DNA of 64,000 bases, taken from NCBI GenBank assembly GCA_000442125.1, contig KE546970.1, forward strand, positions 1,418,667 through 1,482,666, in the 5' to 3' direction. Origin of the DNA: Opeltia flavorubescens. Lineage: Eukaryota; Ascomycota; Lecanoromycetes; Teloschistales; Teloschistaceae. The translations under genes were made by a program, and so were the position numbers. Each line of letters starts with the position of its first letter. Position 1 is the stretch's first letter. Positions 46,778 through 63,718 of the stretch are shown here, one piece after another. The notes beneath the pieces are model-generated. The model did no database searches. It was not told where the DNA came from and saw only the letters and a list, made by a program, of their open reading frames with translations.

Positions 46778-49700
46778 TCATGAGGGTTCTCCTTGCGGTA
46801 AATTTGCAGCACCTTCCAAAGATGACTTGTTGATATCTCCTGATCCGCCTGGGTCCTCCGGCCTGGACTTTGCATGGACTGCATCGTCCTGTAGATTGTT
46901 CAACCGCTCTCTTTCCTTGTCGGTCGAGTCCTCCACTGCTTGTGGCGGAGCTGATTTCATTTCCGTACTCGTCACAGGTGTCGATGCTGACGGCGTTGTA
47001 GAAGCATCATCAAATACATCCCTTGGAGTCATTGCAAACCAGCCACCTCGTTCCCATTGTCCAGGCTTATAGAGACAGCTTTCCCTTGTTTTCTCCTCGA
47101 CGATGCCAGAGAGGAGCACACTCAGCCGTGGAAAGTCAATTGGCTTCAAAATCCAGCCATCGAAGCCAGCGTTAATGTAGTCATCCTTTTCCCTTTCCAA
47201 TAGTGAGGCGGAAACCGCAAAGATAGGTATTCGACCATTCAGTGCCGCTCGTCGTGAGATGTTGCTTCGAGAATGGCTCTTTGCAAATGACCGGATCATC
47301 TTGGTTGAGGTGAGGCCATTGACAATGGGCATCTAGGCGATCCTTAATTATGAGTCACTTATTTGAGCAAGGTCACTTACCTGCATATCCATCAGAACCA
47401 CATCGAATGCAGCCGGGTCATCACCGTAAGCGCTCGAGCACTCCTCTCCATTGACCGTCATATGGAGGGCATGGCCTAACTTCTCTAGTCTCTTTTTCAT
47501 GATTTTACTATTCACTGGATCATCCTCAGCAACTAGTATGTTCAGGTGATTTGCGTTGGGCGGGCTTGCTGCTCTATCTGGAAGGTCGAAGAGTACTCGT
47601 GATGGGCCACGGAAACCCGTCGCTACAGGAGAGCCCTGGCTGGTTTCACCTGGTACGCGGATGGATCTGACCGGGGTTTTGGAGTCAACAATGGCTGCTT
47701 CACCAGGACCTGCCTCCACTTGTTTGGGTTCCTCGACCATTATGCCGCTAGATGACTGTGGTCGCGAACGTGTGTATGTACTAGATCGTCTTGATAAAGC
47801 CGATTTCCTTGAGGAACCGTCGACACTCGCCGATTTGGTCTTGACGACAGGTTCTTGGATGGCCTCAATGAGTCTATCAACATCGCTCTTTGCGCTTGAC
47901 ACACTCTGGACGCTGTTCACACTCATCTTGCTTTTGATACTGTTGACGCTTTCAGTACTTGTTCGACGCGTCACGGTGTCTCTAGGTGTTGTGGGAGTCT
48001 CTTTCTGGGCACTCTTGTTGACAAGTAATATCTCTCCACGTTCAATTGGTGGTGTAATCGGATGTGTGCTTGTCGCATCAGCCTCGTTGGCTTCAGAATC
48101 CTTCACCAGACGTTGAGAATTTTCTTGAGTCGGATGACCAAAGCTCATCTGCATGACAACTCTTGATCCTTTGCCTTCTTCAGACTTGAGCCTCAACTGA
48201 CCATTCATGTTACGTATGATGCGAGCAACGAGTGCCAGGCCTAGACCAAGCGTTCTCTGCTCCTCCTGTGAAGCGGCGATGGCTTTGTTGTCAACGCCCA
48301 ATTTCTCCTGTAAACTTTCGTCGCTCTCACTTTGGACCTGTTCTAATTCTCTAAAAAGAGCATCAAGCTTCGAAGCAGACATACCACAGCCAGTGTCTTC
48401 GACTGCGATATCGATATCGATACGATCCTCAGTACGAGCCGCCAGCCATGTTTCGATTTTGACTGAACCCACAGATGTGTGTTGTATGGCATTTGCAATG
48501 ATATTGGAAATCGCCTGTCGAACGCGTCTTTGGTCCCCTAGAACGTGTTGGGGTACTCCTTCGTTGGCAATGACTTCGTACTTTATCTGCTTCCGCTTTG
48601 CATCACCACGAAACATATCCGTTGCTTCTTGCACGGTGGCTGGGAAATCAAATGCTTCATCCTTGATAAGGTCTTGTCCTTCCTCGGTTTTAGTCAGATC
48701 AAGAAGATCGTTGATAACGTATATGAGTGATTTAGATGCAGAGTGCGACTTCGCCAGATTCTCCCGAGTATCCGAATCAATTGACCCTTCCAAAGCTATT
48801 TCGAGATAATTGATAATGGCATTCAACGGTGTCCGGACTTCATGAGCTGAATTGGCGAGTAGTAATCGGGTCAATTGAGTGTTTTGAACTGCCTGCTCTT
48901 TTTGTCGCCATACTTCGATGAATTTACCGTAGACCAAACACAAGACGGCGGCTGTCTCAATTTGCTCTTCGGTCCATTCTTTACACTTGCCGATTACTGT
49001 CTCGCTCCAAGTTTTGAAACTCTTCCTTGGTTCGAGATAACCCTCAGTGCCTTGTTTGATGAACTTCTCGTAAGGGTTGCCAGCCCACTTGACTTCACGC
49101 ATCTGACCTTTTCGAAAGAAAACGATAAAATCACTCCCACCAACAGAGAGTGGTACAAGTAGAAGACCGGCTATAAAAGAGAAGCCTGGAGCATATTGCA
49201 AATCTGGAAAGTCTAGCCGGATATCGACTGAATCCATTACCGTCGAGAACTTTCTTAATCTCAAGTACTCCAGAAGGGCAAGGGCTTCCTGTGTCTGTTC
49301 AATCTTTCCTAGAATCTTAGTCTCTTCTCTGATCGATAGGAGGCCGCAATCAGCATCAAAAAGCTGAAGCAAATCGTCGGAGGAGGCGACAATATACCCG
49401 GATGGGTTTTTCTCCGTAGGTACGGTATTGATCAACTTTCGGGCTTGCAGTCTCGATGCGTATGAGAGTCGCTCGATGTTGCGTGATGCAGAGTCTCCCA
49501 CAAGACGACACATCTTTCGGATAGGAAACGAAACCCTCATACCCTTCGAACCATAAGAGTGGCATGCGATTAGCCCCCATAGCTCGTTGAATGCATTGAT
49601 GGAGATAGACATGGAGGCTCGAACCGCCATATTGGCAAGATATTTTATGTGGATCGGTGACATTGCACGGAGGTATGCAAATGTCATGTCTAAAGGTGTC

Positions 49701-51391
49701 TCGAGATCTGCAGTTGTTCGACACACCAGACGAGCGGTTTCTTGATCTCGATCATAGAGTAGGCGAACCTTATTGATCTTGTACATATCTCGTGCTTGCT
49801 TTGGTATGTCCGACGCTGGGAAATTCAGACCTTTGTAAAGATCCTTGGTCGCTCTAGGATCTACAAGTTCAGTCACGACTCGTCCATTCCAAGATTGGTC
49901 GAATTGGTATATCATGACGCGATGAAATCCCGTCAACTCTTTCACCACTCCCACTAGTATTTTCAGAAAATTGTCCAGATTCGCAGCATTTGCGAGTTGT
50001 TCTTGAACTTGGGACATGATGTTGAATACTTCCATCGCAGCCGCTTCTCCTTTGCGTTTCCTCGCAGTTCGCAGCACACGGAGAGGTTTGCTCGAGTTGA
50101 CTGTACTTTCAGCCAGTTCTTCTTCTGTGGGATTGCTTTCTAGTGTGTCTTCCGGGAGATCTGGTGTACCTTCGCCATGAGGAATCAAAGGGTTGATAGT
50201 ATCATCCTCAAGCTCAAATTCGCAGATGATCAGGTCGCGATTGGCCTCATTAATATGCATTGCGCACCACAACTTTTGAGATCTCCTTGACTTAGGGGAC
50301 CGTATCGCCATGGTAAAAACTTCAGGGCCATTGGTTGCCGGGTCTGCATCATCGTCACGTATGAAGTCGATATGATCTAGAAGGTTGTCCGCTTGATCTT
50401 CAGTCAGGATGTCACAGAAGCTGTCAAGCTCGAAAAGTTGTCGGGGGGTATATCCAATAATCTTCTTCGAATTTTCGCTCACGGTCCTGACCGAGAAACG
50501 GCCCTCTTCCTCCTCTCTTAAAGTAATGAGTAGACCGAAACTTTGTACTGCTCCAGGCATGTGAATTGGTTCGTCCTCACACCTTTGTAACGTATCCCCA
50601 TCACGACCAATGATAACAGCATGACCTTCGTCCGTCACAACATGCTTAAAGCGTGCGGTGAGGATTCCTTCGGCCTCGTCCTGCCCACCTCTTTGGCTGT
50701 CTGCAATGCTTTGCGGCGCTGACATGCTGGGACCGCTTTCTGATTGAGCAGAGCTATTGTTAACAAACGTCTGTAGCTGTCTGGCGCCACCCATGCGTTC
50801 TTTTTCTGCGGATTGTGTTATTGATCCTCTACTGGTTGCGGAAGGCGGCCACCGCCCAGAGTTCTCAGGGATAGATGAGGACATGGACGCGGCACCCAAC
50901 GGGGTTTTCGGCGTAGATGCAGCGCTTGGCGTCTGTGGTGTGCTCTCATCGATGTTAGGCACACTGCTTATAGAATGTCGACGAGAGCTGGAGAGTGACT
51001 CTGCAGTACTCCTGGCAGTGTTCCTCCTTGGTATTGCCATTCCAGGAAAGCTATCTTCATTGTTTTCGGTTCTCGCCGTAGGGGTCTGTGAAGGATCAAC
51101 AGATATGACTGATCTTACTGGAAACACACGGTCCGTAACGGATGGGCTCATGAATGGCGAATCAGAAGGAGGTGAGAAGGTGGTATTGTTCGGAGGCAGT
51201 TGAGCTGACATGCCAACACTGGGCAGATGTGGCCTTTCTTGATCGTTGGGTGGCCATGACGTTGATCTTGAGGCTTGAGAAGCTGAGGGNGTAGCTTCAG
51301 AATTTGATCGTTGGTGACTCGATAATGAAGGTTGATCATCTTTCGATGAGCTCTGGGGGTCCTGTGAAGGCTGGTTGGAGCTGGACCACAT
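46778..51391 (-). CDS. FPH1: Fungal phytochrome: red-light-sensing hybrid histidine kinase
   Basis: Biliverdin-binding photoreceptor and hybrid histidine kinase (FphA/PHY-1 type). The start at 51391 (MWSSSNQPSQDPQSSSKDDQ) opens a long Ser-rich tail. In order come PAS with the chromophore-attachment cysteine in TLQRCEDEPIHMPGAVQSFG, GAF with FPASDIPKQARDMYKINKVR and PIHIKYLANMAVRASMSISI, and PHY. The kinase follows: H-box ANSAHEVRTPLNAIINYLE, DHp helices, N-box IIANAIQHT, G-boxes DTGCGMS and LGLGLALVARIIRNMNGQL. The receiver domain starts LNILVAEDDPVNSKIMKKRL with phospho-acceptor Asp in VVLMDMQ, an intron (GTAAGT...GCCTAG), then MPIVNGLTSTKMIR and the Lys of GWILKPID. The end is at 46778. Length about 1,520 residues is normal. 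All photosensory and catalytic residues look intact. One N base near 51290 is in the N-terminal tail. Confidence 0.94.
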
Positions 51392-52412
51392 GGCCAATTG
51401 CACAGATCTCTATCCCCGAAAGTGACAAATAATAACCCGTGGAAAGAGCCTTTACGCGATAGCTCTTCAAGATGATGTAGTGAACATTGGGCTCGAAAGG
51501 CTGTTAATCGTGGAGGCTCGCCCGTATGTCCGTATCGACGTGCGCTGCGACATCTTCCCTTGGATGATCCCCATCTCGTAAACCGGTATCATCTCAATGT
51601 GGCAAATAGACCGTGGATCAGCCCTACCCGTCAACCTAATGTTTGGCTCATCTGATTTTGACGCGTTTACGCTTAGTAAGCGACTGTTTCAGCCACTTCG
51701 ACTCATGGATGCAAGGTTCCCGGTACTGATGCGACAAATTCGATCCATCGAATTTACTGCGACTTCTATCGACGATTCACATGTGCAAGCTGACAGCAAC
51801 ATTGAGCTTCACCTGGCCTAGTGTAATCGAGACTCTCGGCTCCTTGCCAGACACAAGAGCTGAGAGGTAATACCGCACTACGTCCACCTAGAACTCGACG
51901 AAGCTGTGGAGTGCGAGAGCCGCTCTGCTGCGCACATGCATTGGCACAAGATATTGCTGCTATTTGATGGATTCTCTTGACATTACATCAGAATGTCTCG
52001 AAGCACATTAAATAGGGTAGGCATTGGTCCAAAATTCGGTAGGCCCTCCATGACGGCTGCTTCCAATACAAGGATAGAGTCAAATAATTTCAGACAATAC
52101 CTAGGTCGNCTGACCATGACTTGGTATTCCGTACACATTGTACAAATCTTCTCCGTGTTAGAAACTTTCAATGACCGTCCCATTGGTATCATATCAAACA
52201 TCATGGTGGACGCACAAAGAATGATTTTGGCAACCCTTAAGTTCTAAACCAGGATTGCTTCCAGCGGCAGCCAGCGATGTCTTCTTTTCATCAGCCCCAG
52301 CGTCGTCAGTAATCAAACGAAAGCAGGACGCTGCACGCAAAATTTGATCATGTGGCCCACAGGCTTGCGAACACTGAAATGAAGTTCAAATCAAGGTGGA
52401 AGACCATTGATG
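51392..52412. other. Intergenic region, start of the gene-poor accessory block
   Basis: About 1 kb with the phytochrome promoter on the left. Two short ORFs (51597-51821 plus, 51983-52204 minus) have no features I can name. An N base lies near 52089. Confidence 0.4.
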
Positions 52413-53128
52413 TTATGAGGCCAAAGGTTTAGCCAGCCGTTTCTCTCGATCTCGTTCTTCTTGTTGTTTTTTCTCTTCAGCTCGTCGTTTATCAGCTTCT
52501 ACCTTGTTTTGCGCTTGTTGAGCCTGTGCAGCTGATTTGGCAGCAGCAGTTAGCAATGACAGATGCAAAGTCTGATAGACGAGGAACATCGTAAGGCTAC
52601 GTCAGTTCATACCAGGAGTTTGTTGCCCATTGAACAGTGGGTATAAGCCCCTGTCGCTGTCGTTACGGTGGCTCATAAGAGTATTCCTCCCAAAGGTAAC
52701 AATGTAGGTGCCAGATTCGATAACATGAAACGTTGCCGGGTACTGCATTGCAACATTTGTTTTGTGCCACAGAAGATCGATTTTACCAAGGATCCTATTC
52801 ATGTGATATCCTGCTTCTTGAGCTCCAGGCTCCTTGCAAGGTTCATAGTCTAAGCCTAACCGTTTGACCACTGAAGTTGAGATGATATTCAGAGAAGTGG
52901 AATTGTCCACATCCGCATGGGTATGAAGTTGTGTTTCTATCTCGGCGTGGAACAGTACAATGTTGACTCCGTTGAAAGCGTCCTTTAGGGTATTTCAGCC
53001 CACGTGTCATCAAAAGTACTAGAGCATACCATGATTGTGAGTGTAGGACTATTATAAGGGAAATGAGGATGAAGCCAGAATATCCCAAGTAGGGTCTGGA
53101 AGGTGGATGGTCTAAAATCGAATTGCAT
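52413..53128 (-). CDS. Retropepsin-like domain protein, type A copy 1 (with C-terminal coiled coil)
   Basis: Three exons make a protein of roughly 205 residues. Exon 1 is 33 codons from 53128 (MQFDFRPSTFQTLLGIFWLH). A phase-0 intron leads to DAFNGVNIVLFHAEIETQLH and then a retropepsin-like segment (SLNIISTSVVKRLGLDYEP, ILGKIDLLWHK, ATFHVIESGTYIVTFGRN). A phase-1 intron after QQTPG leads to a charged coiled-coil tail (AQQAQNKVEADKRRAEEKKQ, EERDREKR). The domain aligns by eye with the clearer aspartic-protease pattern of the type B genes here but is diverged around the active site, so activity is doubtful. It is paralogous to 56054-56761 with the same intron phases. The intron-bearing structure and the lack of reverse transcriptase, integrase or LTRs nearby suggest a resident gene family, possibly derived long ago from an LTR-type element. 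Confidence 0.55.
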
Positions 53129-53900
53129 TTGGGATGCGAGGAAGATCGCTGGGAGATATGGAATGCTTGCTCGTGGGCAAGGTGTCACGAAGAAAGAGCC
53201 GCAAACCCTCGCTTTGATGTTGGGAACAACATAGCCAGGCAAACGCTTTTGCTAAATGGTGTGCGAACGTTGGATATTACAGGTCAGCGCTGTACATGTA
53301 GCAACGACGATGTAGGTAGCCTTTGTGCGAACGTAACCGTCTGTACTCCGTCATATTTGTTTGTGCTTTCGACTATCGAATTTCGACTGAAGTTTGTGGT
53401 TTCAAATATTAGCTGAAAGTGCTGCAACAACCAAAGACTTTCAAGTAACATCATTCTGACCATATGTACGGATGAAGTAGTATAGTAGGTCCTTCCCATA
53501 AAACAAGGCAATCGAAACGAGGGTATCTGACGCACCATAACTTGCAGCTGTCGACATGCATGCAGTTCTCGCAGAAGACCCGATGGTTATGATTGGTCCA
53601 TGTAGCATTCATGCATGTTCTGTGGCTTTCATTCCGTAATGCTATTGGCTACCCCTTTGATTCACCGTGATGCAGCATTTTCTGCTAGCCCCAAAAATTC
53701 ATGGAAGATGCGCCATTGGTCCGAACTCAATTAGCCCGCTTTTACGGAGATGCACTGCCGAGTTCCACATTCCTTGTCGAATAGGCTAAACCATTCATGG
53801 TAGATGATCAGTCACCCGAAGACGGAGCAACCACATCCGGTTTGAAAGATTAACTTTCAGTGTGCTCTTCTTCATATCAGAACACTGCCAATGTCAAACA
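53129..53900. other. Spacer between type A copy 1 and type B copy 2
   Basis: About 770 bases, similar in length to the spacer between the other A-B pair (720). No ORF with recognisable features. Confidence 0.4.
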
Positions 53901-54275
53901 TTACATATCAGTACACCATGGGCCTGGGATCGGGTCTTCAACAAAGAAAACTGTTGAATTCGGAGACCAAAACCCGATCTTCGCAATCTCAGGATAAGAC
54001 AGAAGGATGTTGAAGTGGTTTGTCCAGTTTCCGTCCTCTATCACAGCGAAAGTGCTTGTGTAAACACGTTTTCTCTCCGAGACATGCCAATCAAAAGTCA
54101 CGCGACCCATGGGTCGGAAGCTGGGTCCAATGGGCTCGAGTTCTGGACCAAGATAGTCTTCCATGTAGAGACAATGCGACAATACAAAACTCCGGCTGAT
54201 GAGGTTTTGTGAAGATCCTGAATCTAGCTTCGCTACCTGTATTACTCTCGCCCCACCTGGTCTGTGTATCACCAT
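53901..54275 (-). CDS. Retropepsin-like domain protein, type B copy 2
   Basis: An open exon of about 125 codons carrying an aspartic-protease-like pattern: QVAKLDSGSSQNLISRSFVL (Asp-Ser-Gly-Ser followed by the NLIS strand), then ELEPIGPSFRPMGRVTFDWH and STFAVIEDGNWTNHFNILLS. It matches the type B gene at 57482-58324 along its whole length, including the lead-in TTCLMVIHRPGG versus TTFLMAIHGPEG. The upstream exons and true start are unclear; the long N-terminal part of the other type B gene was not found upstream. It may be a short or partly decayed relative. Domain assignment is by motif only. Ends at 53901 (GPWCTDM). Confidence 0.5.
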   Translation of the reverse strand: MVIHRPGGARVIQVAKLDSGSSQNLISRSFVLSHCLYMEDYLGPELEPIGPSFRPMGRVTFDWHVSERKRVYTSTFAVIEDGNWTNHFNILLSYPEIAKIGFWSPNSTVFFVEDPIPGPWCTDM

Positions 54276-56053
54276 TAGGCACGTGGTCTGGGAGCTGTTG
54301 CTGCTGCTTTCTCCCTATCAATAGACAGTAAGCGATTTCGTTCCGACAGCACAGAGCTGACGGTACCTTAAATATATTCCAAATACCGTATATGGCGGCT
54401 AAACAAAGTCCGAACTCTTGGAGCGTACGATTGGTCTCGCCAATATCCTTTCAAAAATGTATAAGCGACATGACCACATAAGGAAGATAGATGAGTCACC
54501 TTGACAGTAAACCTCTCGGAGATTTTCCATATGCTCAGGGAACATATGAAAACCATCCAGAAATGTACAGGAACTCTTGGTCTTGGCATTCTGTCAAATT
54601 ATTCTATCCAATGGAGATAACGAGTCACCTGAAATTCGAAAATTTCTTTCGATATCGCCTTGGGTCAGGACCTGCAATCTTGACTGCTGAGATCCCTCTT
54701 GATCAATTGTGACAGGATCGGAACTTCTTACGGACTCAAAACGGCATTCAAAATGGTCTTTGACAAGCTCTCAGTAGGTCCGGAGTTTTGACCAGAAAGT
54801 GTATGGACTTATTTTCCAATTATCTCTCTTTATTGCCTTGTCCCGAGAGTATCCCGGTCTTGTTCTCGTTGGTTATGTCTCTTCTTCGATACCCTTTGCT
54901 TGTGTTTACTTTTCGTACAAGGAAGGGAGTAGACCTCAGTGGAGTTGATCTAACGTAGCAGGAGTTCTCTAAGAGTCAGTGCCAGGTTCACGGACACGAA
55001 ATACAACTGAAAGTGCTTGATGGTGCAGAGCTGAGTTCGAGGGACCTGAGGTATTTCCGAGGATTAGGAAGTATAGATTTGAGTCCAGCGGTGAGCGAAT
55101 GTTCTCTGGATGAAGGATCAAACTGGGTCTCAATGGAGAAGTAAGCTTCTTCGCAATTAAAGAATGAGCTGATAGAGGGGAATGCGGTGGTAGAGGTAAT
55201 CATCACTGGGTGGTGCGTACGCAAATTGTGCAACAATGATGAGAGAACTCAGTGATATCGCTAAACTTTGTCTCGAATTGTGACCAATTAAAAAGATAAA
55301 ATTACCAGTGAACAGCAAGGGAACATTTCGAAGACTCACATGCAGTATCTAGTCTACTTATCTGCGTGGATGATGCAATTACGATCGTAGAGTGCTCGTT
55401 CTACCCGGTCCACATTGCCATTCTCAAATGCCCGCCCATGGCGGCGGGCACTAGTGGCGCATCCGGCTTGGTCTTGCCACCACAAAGTCCTGGTACCTTA
55501 TATTAGCTTCCTGTGGTATGAACCCAGCCCACAAGACATAGATGGTATACTATGACCCGCACCCTTATAGATCGGAGTGTGTTAAATGACATAATCCAAA
55601 GATTTGCTATATAAATGTCACGATATGCAATAATGCGATAGGATGATTAGCAACAGTACAGATCTCTCCTGATTATCATTGATTGCACGACACATCATGC
55701 CTACTTGCTTGTACAATATTTTCTTAAAGTTTCTACCTTATCAGATCCCTTGCCTAGGGTTCTACGCTGGGTAACATACAGCTCGAGGCTACAACAGGAT
55801 CAGGACTAAAAAGAATAGAGGTCGACAATGCTAGCGTTTTTCCCGTATCTTAATCATCAAATTTATATACAACGATTTTGCAGGTGTTTTATCCTTACAC
55901 ATCTACTGCGATGTGTCTTCTGTGTCTAGCAACCATTCTTTAGGATGCATAGAACGAACGAAAGAGAAGTGAGGATTTCTTGCTTCGAAGAATCCACGCA
56001 CAGACAAGAGACCCAACCGTACAGTGTATGCTGTTACACCGCTAATGGCCTGC
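54276..56053. other. Gene-poor spacer between the two A-B units
   Basis: About 1.8 kb. It may include 5' parts of type B copy 2. Short minus-strand ORFs at 54368-54589 and 54988-55236 lack family features. No terminal repeats or transposase sequence recognised. Confidence 0.4.
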
Positions 56054-56761
56054 TCACCGCTTCTCTCGATCTCGAGCTTCTTGCTGCTTCTGTTCTTCGG
56101 CTCGTCGTTTCTCTGCTTCTGCTTTCTTTTGCGCCTGTTGGGCTTTTTGTTCTGGAACCAGCAGAGCTTTAGCAACTCTGCAAAATTTTCCAGAAATGCA
56201 GTTGAGCTTGAGATGAATCAATTACGTACCAGGTGTTTGTTGTCCAAGTTCTAGAGGATATATTCCAGCACTTGACTCGTTGGGATTATCTGAGCATGCC
56301 GTTGCTCCGAGCGTTACCAATTTAATTTCGGATTCAATAACATAGAAGGTTTCGGCGTACTGCTTCGCAAACCCCTCTTTATGCCATTGGAGGTCGATTT
56401 TCCCAAATGGACGATACGTCTGATTTCTTCCATCTCGTATTTCAATTGCCTCGCAATTAATACATGCCTGCTGTAACCAATTCAAGACAGGTCTTGATAT
56501 AATGCTGACGGGTATAGACTCGTCCACATCTGCATGAATATCGAGATGTGTTTCTACTTCTCCAGGGAATAATATACCCGGGAACAGTGTGATATCAACG
56601 CCGTCGAAAGCGTCCTTTATCAGCTGTCAGAGCATTGCCCAAGAAAGACAGCTTAGACTTACCATAGCTGTTAGGCTAGGAGCACCCGTGCGAAATTTCC
56701 GTCGAAGCCAAGAAATCCCAATAAGGCTTGAGAAAATTGGATGGCTGCGGTCGACCAACAT
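56054..56761 (-). CDS. Retropepsin-like domain protein, type A copy 3 (with C-terminal coiled coil)
   Basis: Paralogue of 52413-53128 with the same three-exon plan. Exon 1 is again exactly 33 codons from 56761 (MLVDRSHPIFSSLIGISWLR), followed by a phase-0 intron (GTAAGT...ATAAAG). Exon 2 starts DAFDGVDITLFPG and has the diverged retropepsin-like segment (PVSIISRPVLNWLQQAC, PFGKIDLQWHKEGF, ETFYVIESEIKLVTLG). After QQTPG comes a phase-1 intron (GTACGT...GCTAAAG). Exon 3 encodes ALLVPEQKAQQAQKKAEAEK and a charged helix, ending RDREKR at 56054. Conserved exon lengths and phases across two diverged copies are good evidence that both are real, spliced genes. Function unknown; the coiled coil suggests oligomerisation or a partner protein. 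Confidence 0.6.
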
Positions 56762-57481
56762 TGTGTTTAGAGGACAACTATATTATAATTTAGACCATGC
56801 GACAGCCTCGTCAGGCAATGCTCCATAGAAACAGAGCCTCAGAAGCCTCGCCGTGCGATGCATCCTCAATGAAAGTGATGTGTGGGAGGCCAATAGGTAA
56901 TCTTACAAGCCTGCAAGGCGTGACGAACACCGGTAACGAACGCCGGTAAGGCTGAGAGCATGACATGTCACATTCCAAAATTTGATTCGGGGTTGCATGA
57001 GCCAACCAGGAATCAAGTCAGATCAAAGACATTTCTGAGCATGATCTCGGCGCATGTCTAGATCCTTGTGAACCAATTTGGGATCTCTAATTTCCGGTAT
57101 CCGCGATGGAAAGTGGAGTCCAAACTCATAATCCAATCGACCGCTTTCCTGCACGCTGTGACCATATAGGTACTAGTCCAGAATCTAGCACGCATATACC
57201 CGTGTTTGTAGTGTTTCTAGTTGGCTGGCGAGGCTGGATATAGCGAAGATCTCGGCGGCTTTAGGCTTACTCTGGAACGGATATTGTAAGGGCCACGGCA
57301 AGGCTGTGCATAACCCCTCGCTTCGGTGCCTACTTAATATCCATCAAGTAGTAAATGGTGTTCTTATTTTCTAGATACAAAAATAATTTGCTCAACACTA
57401 TTCATCTGAGTTTTCAAGCTACCAAGATCATATATCTAAACCAAAAGTACCCAAAGCCTTCAACTCAGGCCTTCAAAGAAC
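56762..57481. other. Spacer between type A copy 3 and type B copy 4
   Basis: About 720 bases without a convincing ORF. It probably carries the promoter of type A copy 3. Confidence 0.4.
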
Positions 57482-58324
57482 TCATTGAATGTAAAAGACT
57501 TCATGATTCCGAACGTAAAAACGGTGTTTTTGTATCTCCTGCTCAGAGAGTAGAATGTCGAAGCCAAGTTGATGGTCCTCTAAGATCGTGAAAGTGGTTC
57601 GATGGATGGTTTGTCTTTCCGAGACATGCCAGTCGAATGTTACTTGGTGTTTTGGAGAGACTAGAGGTCCAATTGGCTTGAGGGCAAGGCCGCTGTATGC
57701 TTCTACGCGAAGACCGATTGACGTTGTGAGCTTCCGACTGATGAGATTCTGCTTCGATCCTGTGTCTAATTTGGTCACATGCATTATTGTCTTCCCTTCT
57801 GGTCCGTGGATAGCCATAAGAAATGTCGTTGGCAAAGAGGGATTTGACACAAAATCCGTGGTCGATATTGGCAAGATCTTCCGAAGTAGCTGCCGGCCTA
57901 CGACACTCCATTTTCGAGGGTCTTCAGACTGCATATCCGCAGTGCCCAAATCGCTGACGGCGTCCGTGCCAACATCATTCAGATTGCAACGACATGTGAG
58001 GACTCTCTCTAGGTTTTGCAGGATACTTCGCGCAGCTTTTGCTGTTGCTATCTGGTCTTCCAATTCTTTCCTCCCATTCACTGACAGATTTGGATTGGCA
58101 CCAGCCCCTGGTTGACAAGCCAGGTCAACGGTAGGTCCCTCTCGAATTATGAATTCCTCCCATCTCTTTAAGATGTGTTGTTCAGCTGTTGAGTATACAA
58201 TTCGATCTTCCAGCTCTTTCTTTTCGGTCGTCACAAAATGTTCGAATAAGGAGCGAAATGAAGTCTTTATTGGGAGATTCTCCGGTACCCTCAGTGGTGC
58301 TTCCGGTTTTGGAGGTGGATTCAT
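57482..58324 (-). CDS. Retropepsin-like domain protein, type B copy 4
   Basis: Best preserved of the four. The exon from 58324 (MNPPPKPEAPLRVPENLPIK) encodes 280 residues. The N-terminal half holds two similar helical stretches (KKELEDRIVYSTAEQHILKR and RKELEDQIATAKAARSILQN), an internal repeat. The C-terminal half is a single retropepsin-like domain: MHVTKLDTGSKQNLISRKLT with an Asp-Thr-Gly-Ser active-site pattern, LKPIGPLVSPKHQVTFDWH, and FTILEDHQLGFDILLSEQEI where the family often has a flap and second glycine. Upstream, a frame-compatible intron (CAG|GTTAGT...GCCAG) near 58345-58395 would add DQIAKLNKADILMRISIQ, so the true start is probably upstream of 58324. Retropepsins act as homodimers. 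Whether this one cuts protein is unknown. Confidence 0.6.
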   Translation of the reverse strand: MNPPPKPEAPLRVPENLPIKTSFRSLFEHFVTTEKKELEDRIVYSTAEQHILKRWEEFIIREGPTVDLACQPGAGANPNLSVNGRKELEDQIATAKAARSILQNLERVLTCRCNLNDVGTDAVSDLGTADMQSEDPRKWSVVGRQLLRKILPISTTDFVSNPSLPTTFLMAIHGPEGKTIMHVTKLDTGSKQNLISRKLTTSIGLRVEAYSGLALKPIGPLVSPKHQVTFDWHVSERQTIHRTTFTILEDHQLGFDILLSEQEIQKHRFYVRNHEVFYIQ

Positions 58325-59795: not shown

Positions 59796-60794
59796 ATGGC
59801 TGACTATAACAGGCTTGCATCTATGATTGCACATCATGGAGAGGCTGCTCTTTTCCGTCGTTTCGATGCTTTGAACATCAAGAGTTTATTATATATGCAA
59901 GCTGAAATTATTCATCTTGAGGCTGAGCTACATCAGATCGAAACAGAAGCAAAGTCGTCGGCTGACAAAGGCAAAAATCTTTACCCATTCTCTGTATACG
60001 ATCTCCGAGAATCCGCTTCTACAGGGATGGTCACGCAATGGACCAAATATCAAGAGATTCAAGGCAAGATACAGGCGTACAGTATGTATCATGAAGTCAC
60101 CGCATCTCTAGCCTATTGAATATTGTGCCTCTCAGATCACGCTCTGCTCCAGTACCACTCTCTCAGGAATATTGCCAAACCAACAGCCAATACTGCTGAA
60201 TTCCTTCGAGAATGGTTGGATCGACCCGAGGGAGGTGATTTTTTCCTAAAAGGTCGCGAAGCTACCATTTGGGAGGCAGAGGATGATCTCGTCTCTTTGG
60301 ACTCTCAACAGCCGGATAGAGATGCCTTGACATCTTTTATCAATGAAAAGCTCGTTCCTTGGTACCATCACCGTTGGGGACATCGTACAAAGGTAAAGCT
60401 ATGGCGATGGATATCATCGTACATTCGTTGACCGAGGAGAAGCCTGCATCAACCGCAGAATGGTACGGCGTCTGGCAGTACGATAAGGAGAAACTCAGTG
60501 TACTTGCCAATGCCATCAACACGCTTCTGGCGTCTCTGCTACCGAGCATCTCGATTCTCGTCCTGTACTTTCTCTCGAAACCCGTAACAAGGCTCGTAGC
60601 CATACTGGGGTTTAGTTTTTTCTTCTCCTTGATCTTGACCATGGTGTCTTCTGCTAGACGGATCGAAGTTTTCGCGGCAACAACAGCGTGAGTCTTGCTC
60701 TTGCACGCCAATGATCCATATCTGACTGGTGCTTCCTAGCTTGGCCGCGGTGCAAGTGGTATTCGTATCTGGAGCAGGATTTTGCTCTTGCTGA
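59796..60794 (+). CDS. DUF6594 family membrane protein
   Basis: Fungus-specific protein of the DUF6594 type. Four exons: from 59796 (MADYNRLASMIAHHGEAALF) through FDALNIKSLLYMQAEIIHLE (the conserved R/F-x-L-N-...-LLxxQxEL pattern); then NHALLQYHSLRNIAKPTANT and WEAEDDLVSLDSQQPDRD; then EKPASTAEWYGVWQYDKEKL with two membrane helices (LLASLLPSISILVLYFLS, LVAILGFSFFFSLILTMVS) and the family ending ARRIEVFAATTA; the last exon gives LAAVQVVFVSGAGFCSC, with the stop at 60794. Introns start GTATGT, GTAAAG and GTGAGT. Members are often lineage-expanded and found in variable parts of the genome near incompatibility-like genes. Role unknown. Confidence 0.85.
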
Positions 60795-61824: not shown

Positions 61825-63718
61825 TCATACCTTCTCCTCAACTTCCACACCTCCCACCTCCTTCTCCCCAGCTCCCTCTCTAACCCGCCTACTCTCCTGC
61901 TGAAACTCCTTACTCCCCATCGCCCTCGTATCCCATCCTTTCTCCTCCAAATACTCCCGAAACTTCACATCCTCCATCGAAATCGTATCCTGCCCAATCT
62001 CCGGCAACAACGCCCACGCCAGCAGGGCACTAAACAGACACAAGCTGCTGCTGACGAAAAAGGGATCCTGGCCACCGCGCGTAGAATCTGCTCCGCCGGG
62101 AGCGTTGTCCTGGATGATCGGGAAGAGGTAGGTGCCGACGAAGGCACCAATCTTACCGCACGCGGCTGCGATGGCGTAGTATTGGCCGCGGATAGCAGTG
62201 GCGGAGGTTTTGGAGGCGACAAGGCCAATATTGTCGCCGGGGCCGGCTTCACCAAGGGAGAGGAAGATGCTGTAGCAAAGAGGACCTCGATCAGAGAAGG
62301 GGAAAAAGAGAAATTTTATTAAGGAAAGGTTCAGAACATACCCGTATATCACCACAAAACCAGCCACATTCGCTTTTTTGTCCAGTATTCCATACAACCC
62401 CGCCATCAGGAAACCCACTAAACCTTGGAGAAATACGAAGATGTAAAGAGCGCGACGGGGACCGATCCAATCGCTAATATACGCGCCGGCAATTGCGCCT
62501 GGGAGGTAGAAGGCATTAACCAATGTTCCCCAGGCGAAACTCTTCCAGAGAGAGGTGTCGTCGCCGAGGATGAGGCTGATCCATTGCGTGGAGTAGATGC
62601 TGAAGGAATAGGCGGAGAAATCGTAGATGAACCAGATGAGAGAGACGACAGCTAGACGGAGCCAATAGAACCTATTCGTCTTTTGTGAGCATCATCTTCT
62701 CGTCGTATGCAACAGCGACGCTTGATTACGCACCTCAAAACCAGCAACCAAGGCGTTTTGGTATTTTTCATGGTCTCCCTCTTGAATTCCTCCGGTTCAT
62801 CCAATTTCAACCGAAGCCACAGAAGACTCAATGGCGGTATCACGCCCAGTCCTAGCGATAACCGCCATACCAATCGAAGGTGGCTTTCCGAGCAGATCAA
62901 GACCAGGATCATCGGAACGAGTGTAGAGAGGATAAAGCCGGCATCGATTTGCACATTGGTGAACATGATGAACCAGCGGTTCCGATGGCCGGATTTGAGT
63001 TCTCCGGTGTTTTCAGCACAGGCGACGCTGCCGGCTGGATATTCTCCGCTAAATCAATCACACCTCTGTCAGTCGGGCTTCACCGTGCCAGGATTCTCTA
63101 GGAAGTTCGAAACTTGTGATAGTTTTCTGCTCACCCAATACCAATCCCAATCAGAAACCGCCACGCCGTCAACGCAGCGAACATACCACCAAGATTCCCT
63201 CCCGCGCCATACGAACCGGCAGAGAGCGCGGCGAAGATTATAAGGATGATGGTCGAAGCCATGAGTGCCCATTTCCGCGAATAGTGATCGCTGACATAGC
63301 CGAAGAAGAGCTGTCCGACGACCGTTCCCGCGAAAGTTATGGCGGTGACGTTACTTTGGGCTGGGGATGCGGTGTAGGCTTTTCCGTAGAGCTTCTTGAG
63401 GATGGTGTTGACTTGGCCGATGACGCTGTGGAGCTTGATCAGCTCGAGATAGGTTGGTGCGCATGGAGGCGGACGTACCCGTTTAGATAGCCGTCGGAGA
63501 ATAATCCTAGGGAATGAAATGTCAGAGCTTTAATCGCAAGAACAAACATAAGTGAATGTGGAGAACCTACCGGCACCACAAGCAATCGTCGGCCAACTGC
63601 GATCCCATCTCCCCTTTGGTATCTCATCAATCGGAACCGCAGCATCATGCGCATACTCCCCAGTCGAATCGCCAGAAGGTGAACTCTCTTTCTCGCCGCG
63701 GCGCATCGAGAACTTCAT
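61825..63718 (-). CDS. MFS transporter of the phosphate / glycerophosphoinositol (Git1-like) group
   Basis: Twelve-helix plasma-membrane permease. The start at 63718 is MKFSMRRGEKESSPSG; a farther ATG at 63853 is in the same frame. After several short introns the protein shows AGTVVGQLFFGYVSDHYSRK (the MFS signature after helix 2), LTAWRFLIGIGIGGEYPAGS (helices 4-5, matching the GEYPLS-type motif of phosphate:H+ symporters), NRWFIMFTNVQIDAGF, VVSLIWFIYDFSAYSFSIYS, GRRALY-type loop DWIGPRRALYIFVF, and SLGEAGPGDNIGLVASKTSA, TAIRGQYYAIAAACGKIGAF (a pattern shared with Git1/Pho84 relatives). The cytosolic tail is acidic (EFREYLEEKGWD-like, then VGGVEVEEKV) and ends at 61825. Substrate, whether phosphate, glycerophosphoinositol or glycerophosphocholine, cannot be told from sequence alone. 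Confidence 0.88.

Follow-up and report, generated by a model that had tools for sequence, protein, structure and literature searches.

A 64,000-nucleotide stretch of the Opeltia flavorubescens genome (contig KE546970.1, positions 1,418,667 to 1,482,666 of the forward strand; hereafter the window) was found to carry a cluster of four minus-strand genes at 52,413-58,324, which form two tandem units, each consisting of a D gene followed by a T gene. Here D denotes genes with an Asp-Thr/Ser-Gly motif or a remnant of it, and T denotes diverged genes with a charged tail; these are the types B and A, respectively, of the first-pass annotation of the window. Tentatively, and with somewhat less than even confidence, we interpret the cluster as an old two-gene D-T unit in two copies, the products of which would form a heterodimer with a mainly binding or regulatory role and with proteolysis absent or weak. 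The genome searched comprised 34.4 Mb in 23 contigs, and the window lies on contig C6. All gene models are predictions from DNA alone.

Our analysis bore out the four minus-strand genes, their alternating order and their spacing as first annotated. The coordinates were right, and the gaps between the D stop and the T ATG are 720 bp (D1-T1) and 772 bp (D2-T2). D1 (57482-58324, minus) is a single open frame of 280 amino acids and is retropepsin-like (KLDTGSKQNLIS). T1 (56761-56054, minus) has exons at 56761-56663, 56614-56230 and 56175-56054, which give the domain ADVDESIPVSIIS, with the motifs VDES and VTLG, and a charged tail exon. The retropepsin-like domain exon of D2 (≤54314-53901, minus; KLDSGSSQNLIS) contains LDSGS and ILLS; D2 probably has a further exon upstream, its domain exon beginning no earlier than 54,314. 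T2 (53128-52413, minus) has exons at 53128-53030, 52982-52613 and 52531-52413, which give the domain ADVDNSTSLNIIS, with the motifs VDNS and VTFG, and again a charged tail exon. The predicted introns are 48 and 54 nt in T1 and 47 and 81 nt in T2, and the first exon has 33 codons in both. This three-exon model, with introns in matching positions and phases, fits all three T copies found in the genome, the first exon of T3 being longer; the splice sites were picked by hand for agreement among the copies. The T tails consist of 49-62% D/E/K/R with at most one P or G, and coiled coil was judged by composition only. Of the two gene types described at first, one with Asp-Thr/Ser-Gly and the other diverged with a coiled-coil tail, the motif was confirmed in D1 and D2, and the tails are charged by composition.

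The two halves of the cluster are homologous, as had been proposed. Protein identity is 48% between D1 and D2 and 46% between T1 and T2, and blastn between the halves gave four segments at E 1e-3 or better, all in coding stretches. The best of these lies in the tail exon (82% over 87 nt, E 2e-19). Differences at codon positions 1, 2 and 3 amount to 37, 33 and 58% for D1-D2 and to 37, 31 and 61% for T1-T2; because they concentrate at position 3, both the D and the T frames look selected. By the NG86 method, nonsynonymous divergence (dN) is 0.46 and synonymous divergence (dS) 2.4 for D1-D2, and dN is 0.44 with dS saturated for T1-T2. The D and T coding sequences are under purifying selection. 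In a domain tree of D and T only, the two types form separate clades (support 100/100), D1 pairs with D2 (92/99), and T1 pairs weakly with T2 (64/51). Since dN is about equal in D and T and the tail exons are similar, the simplest account is that a D-T pair, its members already diverged, was copied as a unit. This agrees with the duplicated unit of the first-pass annotation and is supported, also by a third linked pair, but is not certain.

At least four D domains were found in the genome with D1, D3 and the D4-bearing protein of contig C15 as queries, namely D1, D2, D3 (C6:1,744.9 kb) and D4 (C15:1,393.5 kb), and at least three T domains were found genome-wide with T1 and T3 as queries. These copy counts are lower bounds because the exon-level searches scored best candidates only. 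T3 lies on the same strand as D3 and starts 1,008 bp downstream from its stop codon. D3 and T3 make a third D-T pair, and all three T genes found each follow a D gene. It is rather unlikely, in our judgement, that D and T are tandem paralogues acting alone, as homodimers or monomers, with a linkage that is a leftover of duplication without functional meaning. The differing gene structures and tails of D and T speak for such independence, as does D4, which lacks a detected T and is fused to a caspase-like domain. However, each of the three T genes found adjoins a D, even though pair 3 lies 268 kb from D1 and shares only 38-42% identity with the window pair.

The D and T profiles align with each other by hhalign at a probability of 95.7% (E 1e-8). 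The D profile matches T2 (E 6.5e-7), T3 (3.1e-5) and T1 (1.3e-4), and the T profile matches D2 (E 1.7e-5), D3 (0.0015) and D4 (0.015). On this profile evidence, D and T are paralogous. Two other genes, on contigs C17 and C7, carry two retropepsin-like domains in one chain. The C17 gene passes the Pfam cut-off for Asp_protease_2 (31.1 vs 24.3 bits), and the C7 gene falls narrowly under that for gag-asp_proteas (26.9 vs 28.2 bits; Pfam E 7e-6). By hhalign, D and T match the four domains of these genes at E 6e-8 and 4e-5, respectively, and the four domains match the Ddi1 of this genome at E 4e-8. A profile of all 11 domains had nine matches in the PDB at E up to 10, the best of which (E 5e-6) was to Ddi1 structures. 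Six of the nine carry the label DDI1 or DDI2, two the label UBA-domain or ubiquitin-family protein, and the last and weakest is Ty3 Gag-Pol (E 0.59).

Retropepsins include the proteases of retroelements, and the presence of Ty3 Gag-Pol among these matches would fit decaying relics of a long terminal repeat (LTR)-type element. We regard such an origin as very improbable. No reverse transcriptase, integrase or LTR was seen by eye in the open reading frames (ORFs) and repeats around the D/T loci, in agreement with the first-pass annotation, and the only profile search aimed at such an element, with RVP (PF00077), found none in the genome at E 0.001. The matching introns, the open and selected frames, and Ddi1 as the closest structure also stand against it.

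Two further ideas about the two-domain genes were set aside. The first, of the Rosetta-stone kind, was that the first domain of the C17 gene corresponds to D and the second to T. It was not upheld: in the tree, D does not group with the first domains. The hhalign values with C17 alone were 63% (first domain) and 45% (second domain) for D, and 2% and 44% for T; with C7 added, D had 74% to the first domains and 87% to the second, and T 3% and 42%. The second idea, N-terminal repeats common to D1 and the C17 gene, was rejected (best E 3.1). The C17 gene also contains a run of unknown bases (L037:4158-4222) in a repeat-like helical stretch, perhaps a collapsed assembly repeat.

An Asp occupies the catalytic position in all 11 aligned domains. 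D-T/S-G is intact in both C17 domains, both C7 domains, D1 and D2, and the DTG position is altered to DTM in D3, DTA in D4, DES in T1 and T3, and DNS in T2. At the hydrophobic-hydrophobic-Gly position, the two-domain genes have LILG, VILG, LIMG and VLFG. Gly is kept there in D3 (VIIG), D4 (IMLG), T1 (VTLG), T2 (VTFG) and T3 (VILG), and is replaced by Ser in D1 and D2 (ILLS). A passage of PMC2761423 describes the psi-loop as built by the two motifs and states that a retropepsin must dimerise; another in the same paper calls two bacterial pepsin homologues without the Gly motif probably inactive. All four domains of the two-domain genes have both motifs intact, vs none of the seven D/T domains. 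We conclude that proteolysis has probably been lost or weakened in the D/T line, the proteins of which remain under selection. D and T may still be complementary halves of a heterodimer.

Such a heterodimer might still be an active protease, with D giving the D-T/S-G loop and T contributing the remaining half of the cleft together with a targeting tail. D1 and D2 have D-T/S-G, T1-T3 have the Asp and hydrophobic-hydrophobic-Gly, so that the two chains jointly hold both motifs once, and the D-T linkage would fit as well. But D3 and D4 have lost the Gly of DTG, D1 and D2 have lost that of the second motif, and pair 3 has D-T/S-G in neither partner. We consider proteolysis of this kind unlikely, and the same losses make the active subunit with a diverged partner that the first-pass annotation suggested doubtful.

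We favour instead, with the reserve stated above, a heterodimer that does little or no proteolysis. The cluster would then be two copies of an old D-then-T unit encoding paralogous one-lobe Ddi1-like (clan AA) proteins. One-lobe retropepsins form their cleft by dimerising. D and T would form, or would once have formed, a heterodimer, and because neither of them appears to keep a complete catalytic signature, this would be mainly a binding or regulatory module, its proteolysis absent or weak. The charged T tail may recruit a partner. The linkage of all three T genes found, the paralogy, the separate clades, the nearly equal dN, the codon-position bias and the motif losses support this interpretation, as do the Asp kept in all 11 domains, the Ddi1 structures as best PDB matches of the 11-domain profile and the two retropepsin-like domains per chain on C17 and C7. 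The earlier proposal that the products would work together gains from the retained linkage.

Several results weigh against this interpretation. A wider tree of 12 rows groups T1 with T3 (100/99), with long-branch warnings, and this also speaks against duplication as a unit. D1 is absent from the T-profile matches at E up to 10. Single members score below Pfam cut-offs, with 14.3 against 24.3 bits for D1 (Asp_protease_2) and 13.2 against 26 bits for T2 (Asp_protease); T1 and D2 had no match in the Pfam search. Direct comparison with the Ddi1 of this genome was near shuffled controls: of 2000 shuffles, 43 scored as high for the D profile, four for the T profile and nine jointly. The best of five PDB matches of a D/T-only profile, 7efy, which is also among the matches of the 11-domain profile, reached only E 0.03. 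AlphaFold models had low confidence, with a predicted local distance difference test score (pLDDT) of 34.9 for D1 (with D2) and 34.5 for T1 (with T2). The retention of D-T/S-G in D1 and D2 and the invariance of the Asp would be odd if catalysis were of no use. Up to about 10 kb from D4 no T gene was detected, and besides D4 itself no T-profile match there was better than E 0.9 (frames of at least 40 amino acids). Finally, the D-T linkage may simply have been inherited from duplication. Judged by sequence profiles, the retropepsin kinship of D/T is well supported through the intermediates and weak for D/T alone. The retropepsin-like label given at first accordingly stands by profiles via intermediates but not by structure prediction, with pLDDT about 35.

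D4 is the C-terminal part of a 556-amino-acid open frame on C15. The same frame contains the portion of a caspase-like domain that bears LDCCAA, and the portion with YYGGHG sits in an upstream exon. The protein is encoded at L009:3423-5536 (C15:1,393.4-1,395.5 kb, minus). The protein is presumably caspase-like, a label that we take from these motifs and from sub-cut-off matches to Raptor_N (E 0.006) and Peptidase_C14 (E 0.012). A PDB profile search with three caspase-like domains gave none at E 0.01. Caspase-like relatives on C1, at C6:68.8 kb and on C14 had no D domain by the D profile in the stretches fetched.

About 4-5 kb downstream of pair 3 lies a NACHT (NPHP3_N) gene, probably NACHT-WD40 (L039:5541-7049, C6:1,751.5 kb, plus). 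An association of pair 3 with NOD-like receptors (NLRs) was set aside, as the genome has 50 exon-level NPHP3_N matches. Viral contigs were searched with the D alignment only, which gave 22 pattern matches, none of them confirmed. Elsewhere in the window, a large open frame at 47348-51403 (minus) resembles a phytochrome-type hybrid histidine kinase, and ORFs at 61825-62966 (minus) resemble a major facilitator superfamily (MFS) transporter, both by reading by eye.

Our analysis also revealed a recurrent neighbour of the retropepsin-like genes. A DUF6594 gene (59796-60691, plus) with two hydrophobic segments near its C-terminus lies head-to-head with D1, with 1,471 bp between the ATGs. On C17, the two-domain gene (L037:3189-4370, minus) is head-to-head with a DUF6594 gene (L037:4863-5864, plus) at 492 bp. 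In the genome, 18 exon-level matches to DUF6594 were grouped into nine loci. Under uniform placement, two or more of four retropepsin-like loci (the window, pair 3, C15 and C17) would lie within 5 kb of one of nine DUF6594 genes with a probability of 4e-5, which becomes 7e-5 if Ddi1 is added as a fifth locus; these values were computed after the pattern was noticed and before the C7 pair was known. The remaining seven DUF6594 loci were then scanned, and at one of them, on C7, a two-domain gene stands head-to-head with the DUF6594 gene; its D-profile score was non-significant (E 0.47), and it is supported by the Pfam match given above. This pair of a two-domain gene and a DUF6594 gene (L034:6197-7207, plus, with L034:4472-5591, minus) is separated by 605 bp. 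The other six loci had chance-level profile matches only, the ORFs being read for C5 alone, and neither pair 3 nor D4 had a DUF6594 match in the stretches searched.

The C-terminal exons of the three linked DUF6594 genes encode two or three hydrophobic segments. A single clade of these three genes was not upheld, as it appeared in only 18% of 200 bootstrap trees. From the recurrent head-to-head linkage we infer a tie between the retropepsin-like units and DUF6594 putative membrane proteins. A long shot is that retropepsin-like units (linked D-T pairs or two-domain chains) and divergently transcribed DUF6594 membrane proteins make up a fungal module not described before, with a membrane effector that would be controlled by a sensor or regulator of retropepsin fold, with some units having become pseudo-protease heterodimers and one D domain having been recruited to a caspase-like protein. 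The recurrent neighbour is a testable functional lead for this Pfam family, the name of which was not found in the literature searched.

If D and T do pair, a one-lobe protease fold would be split over two diverged linked genes whose signature halves were lost complementarily, and would stand midway between retropepsins that act as homodimers and chains with two domains. Among the matches listed, titles and abstract openings held no description of linked retropepsin-like pairs, which does not show their absence from print. The retropepsin passages seen in other papers concern secreted pepsins (PMC13414439), retrotransposon-like sequence (PMC8454179) and a protease table (PMC13301806).

Of the known systems, Ddi1/Ddi2 (Pfam PF09668, Asp_protease) share with D and T the one-lobe domain, the Asp position and the order of the motifs, and have the closest solved structures by profile. 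However, this genome has its Ddi1 in a gene of its own on C8, with both motifs (VDSGA and LLLG), whereas D and T score under the Pfam cut-off and each lack one of the two motifs. The two-domain genes on C17 and C7 (PF13650, Asp_protease_2, and PF13975, gag-asp_proteas) are profile-related to D and T and likewise stand head-to-head with DUF6594, but they have two domains per chain with both motifs intact in all four, whereas D and T are separate genes. Protease/gasdermin clusters of the HET-Q2/HET-Q1 type offer an analogy only, in that a retropepsin-fold gene here stands beside a putative membrane-protein gene; a cell-death role of the D/T-DUF6594 loci is speculation on this basis, and the fusion of a D domain to a caspase-like protein points the same way. 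According to a passage of PMC10197012, fungal gasdermin genes stand in clusters with the genes for their protease-bearing activators in about 80% of cases, and the proteases named there are S8 serine or CHAT cysteine proteases, whereas the loci described here combine retropepsin-like genes with DUF6594.

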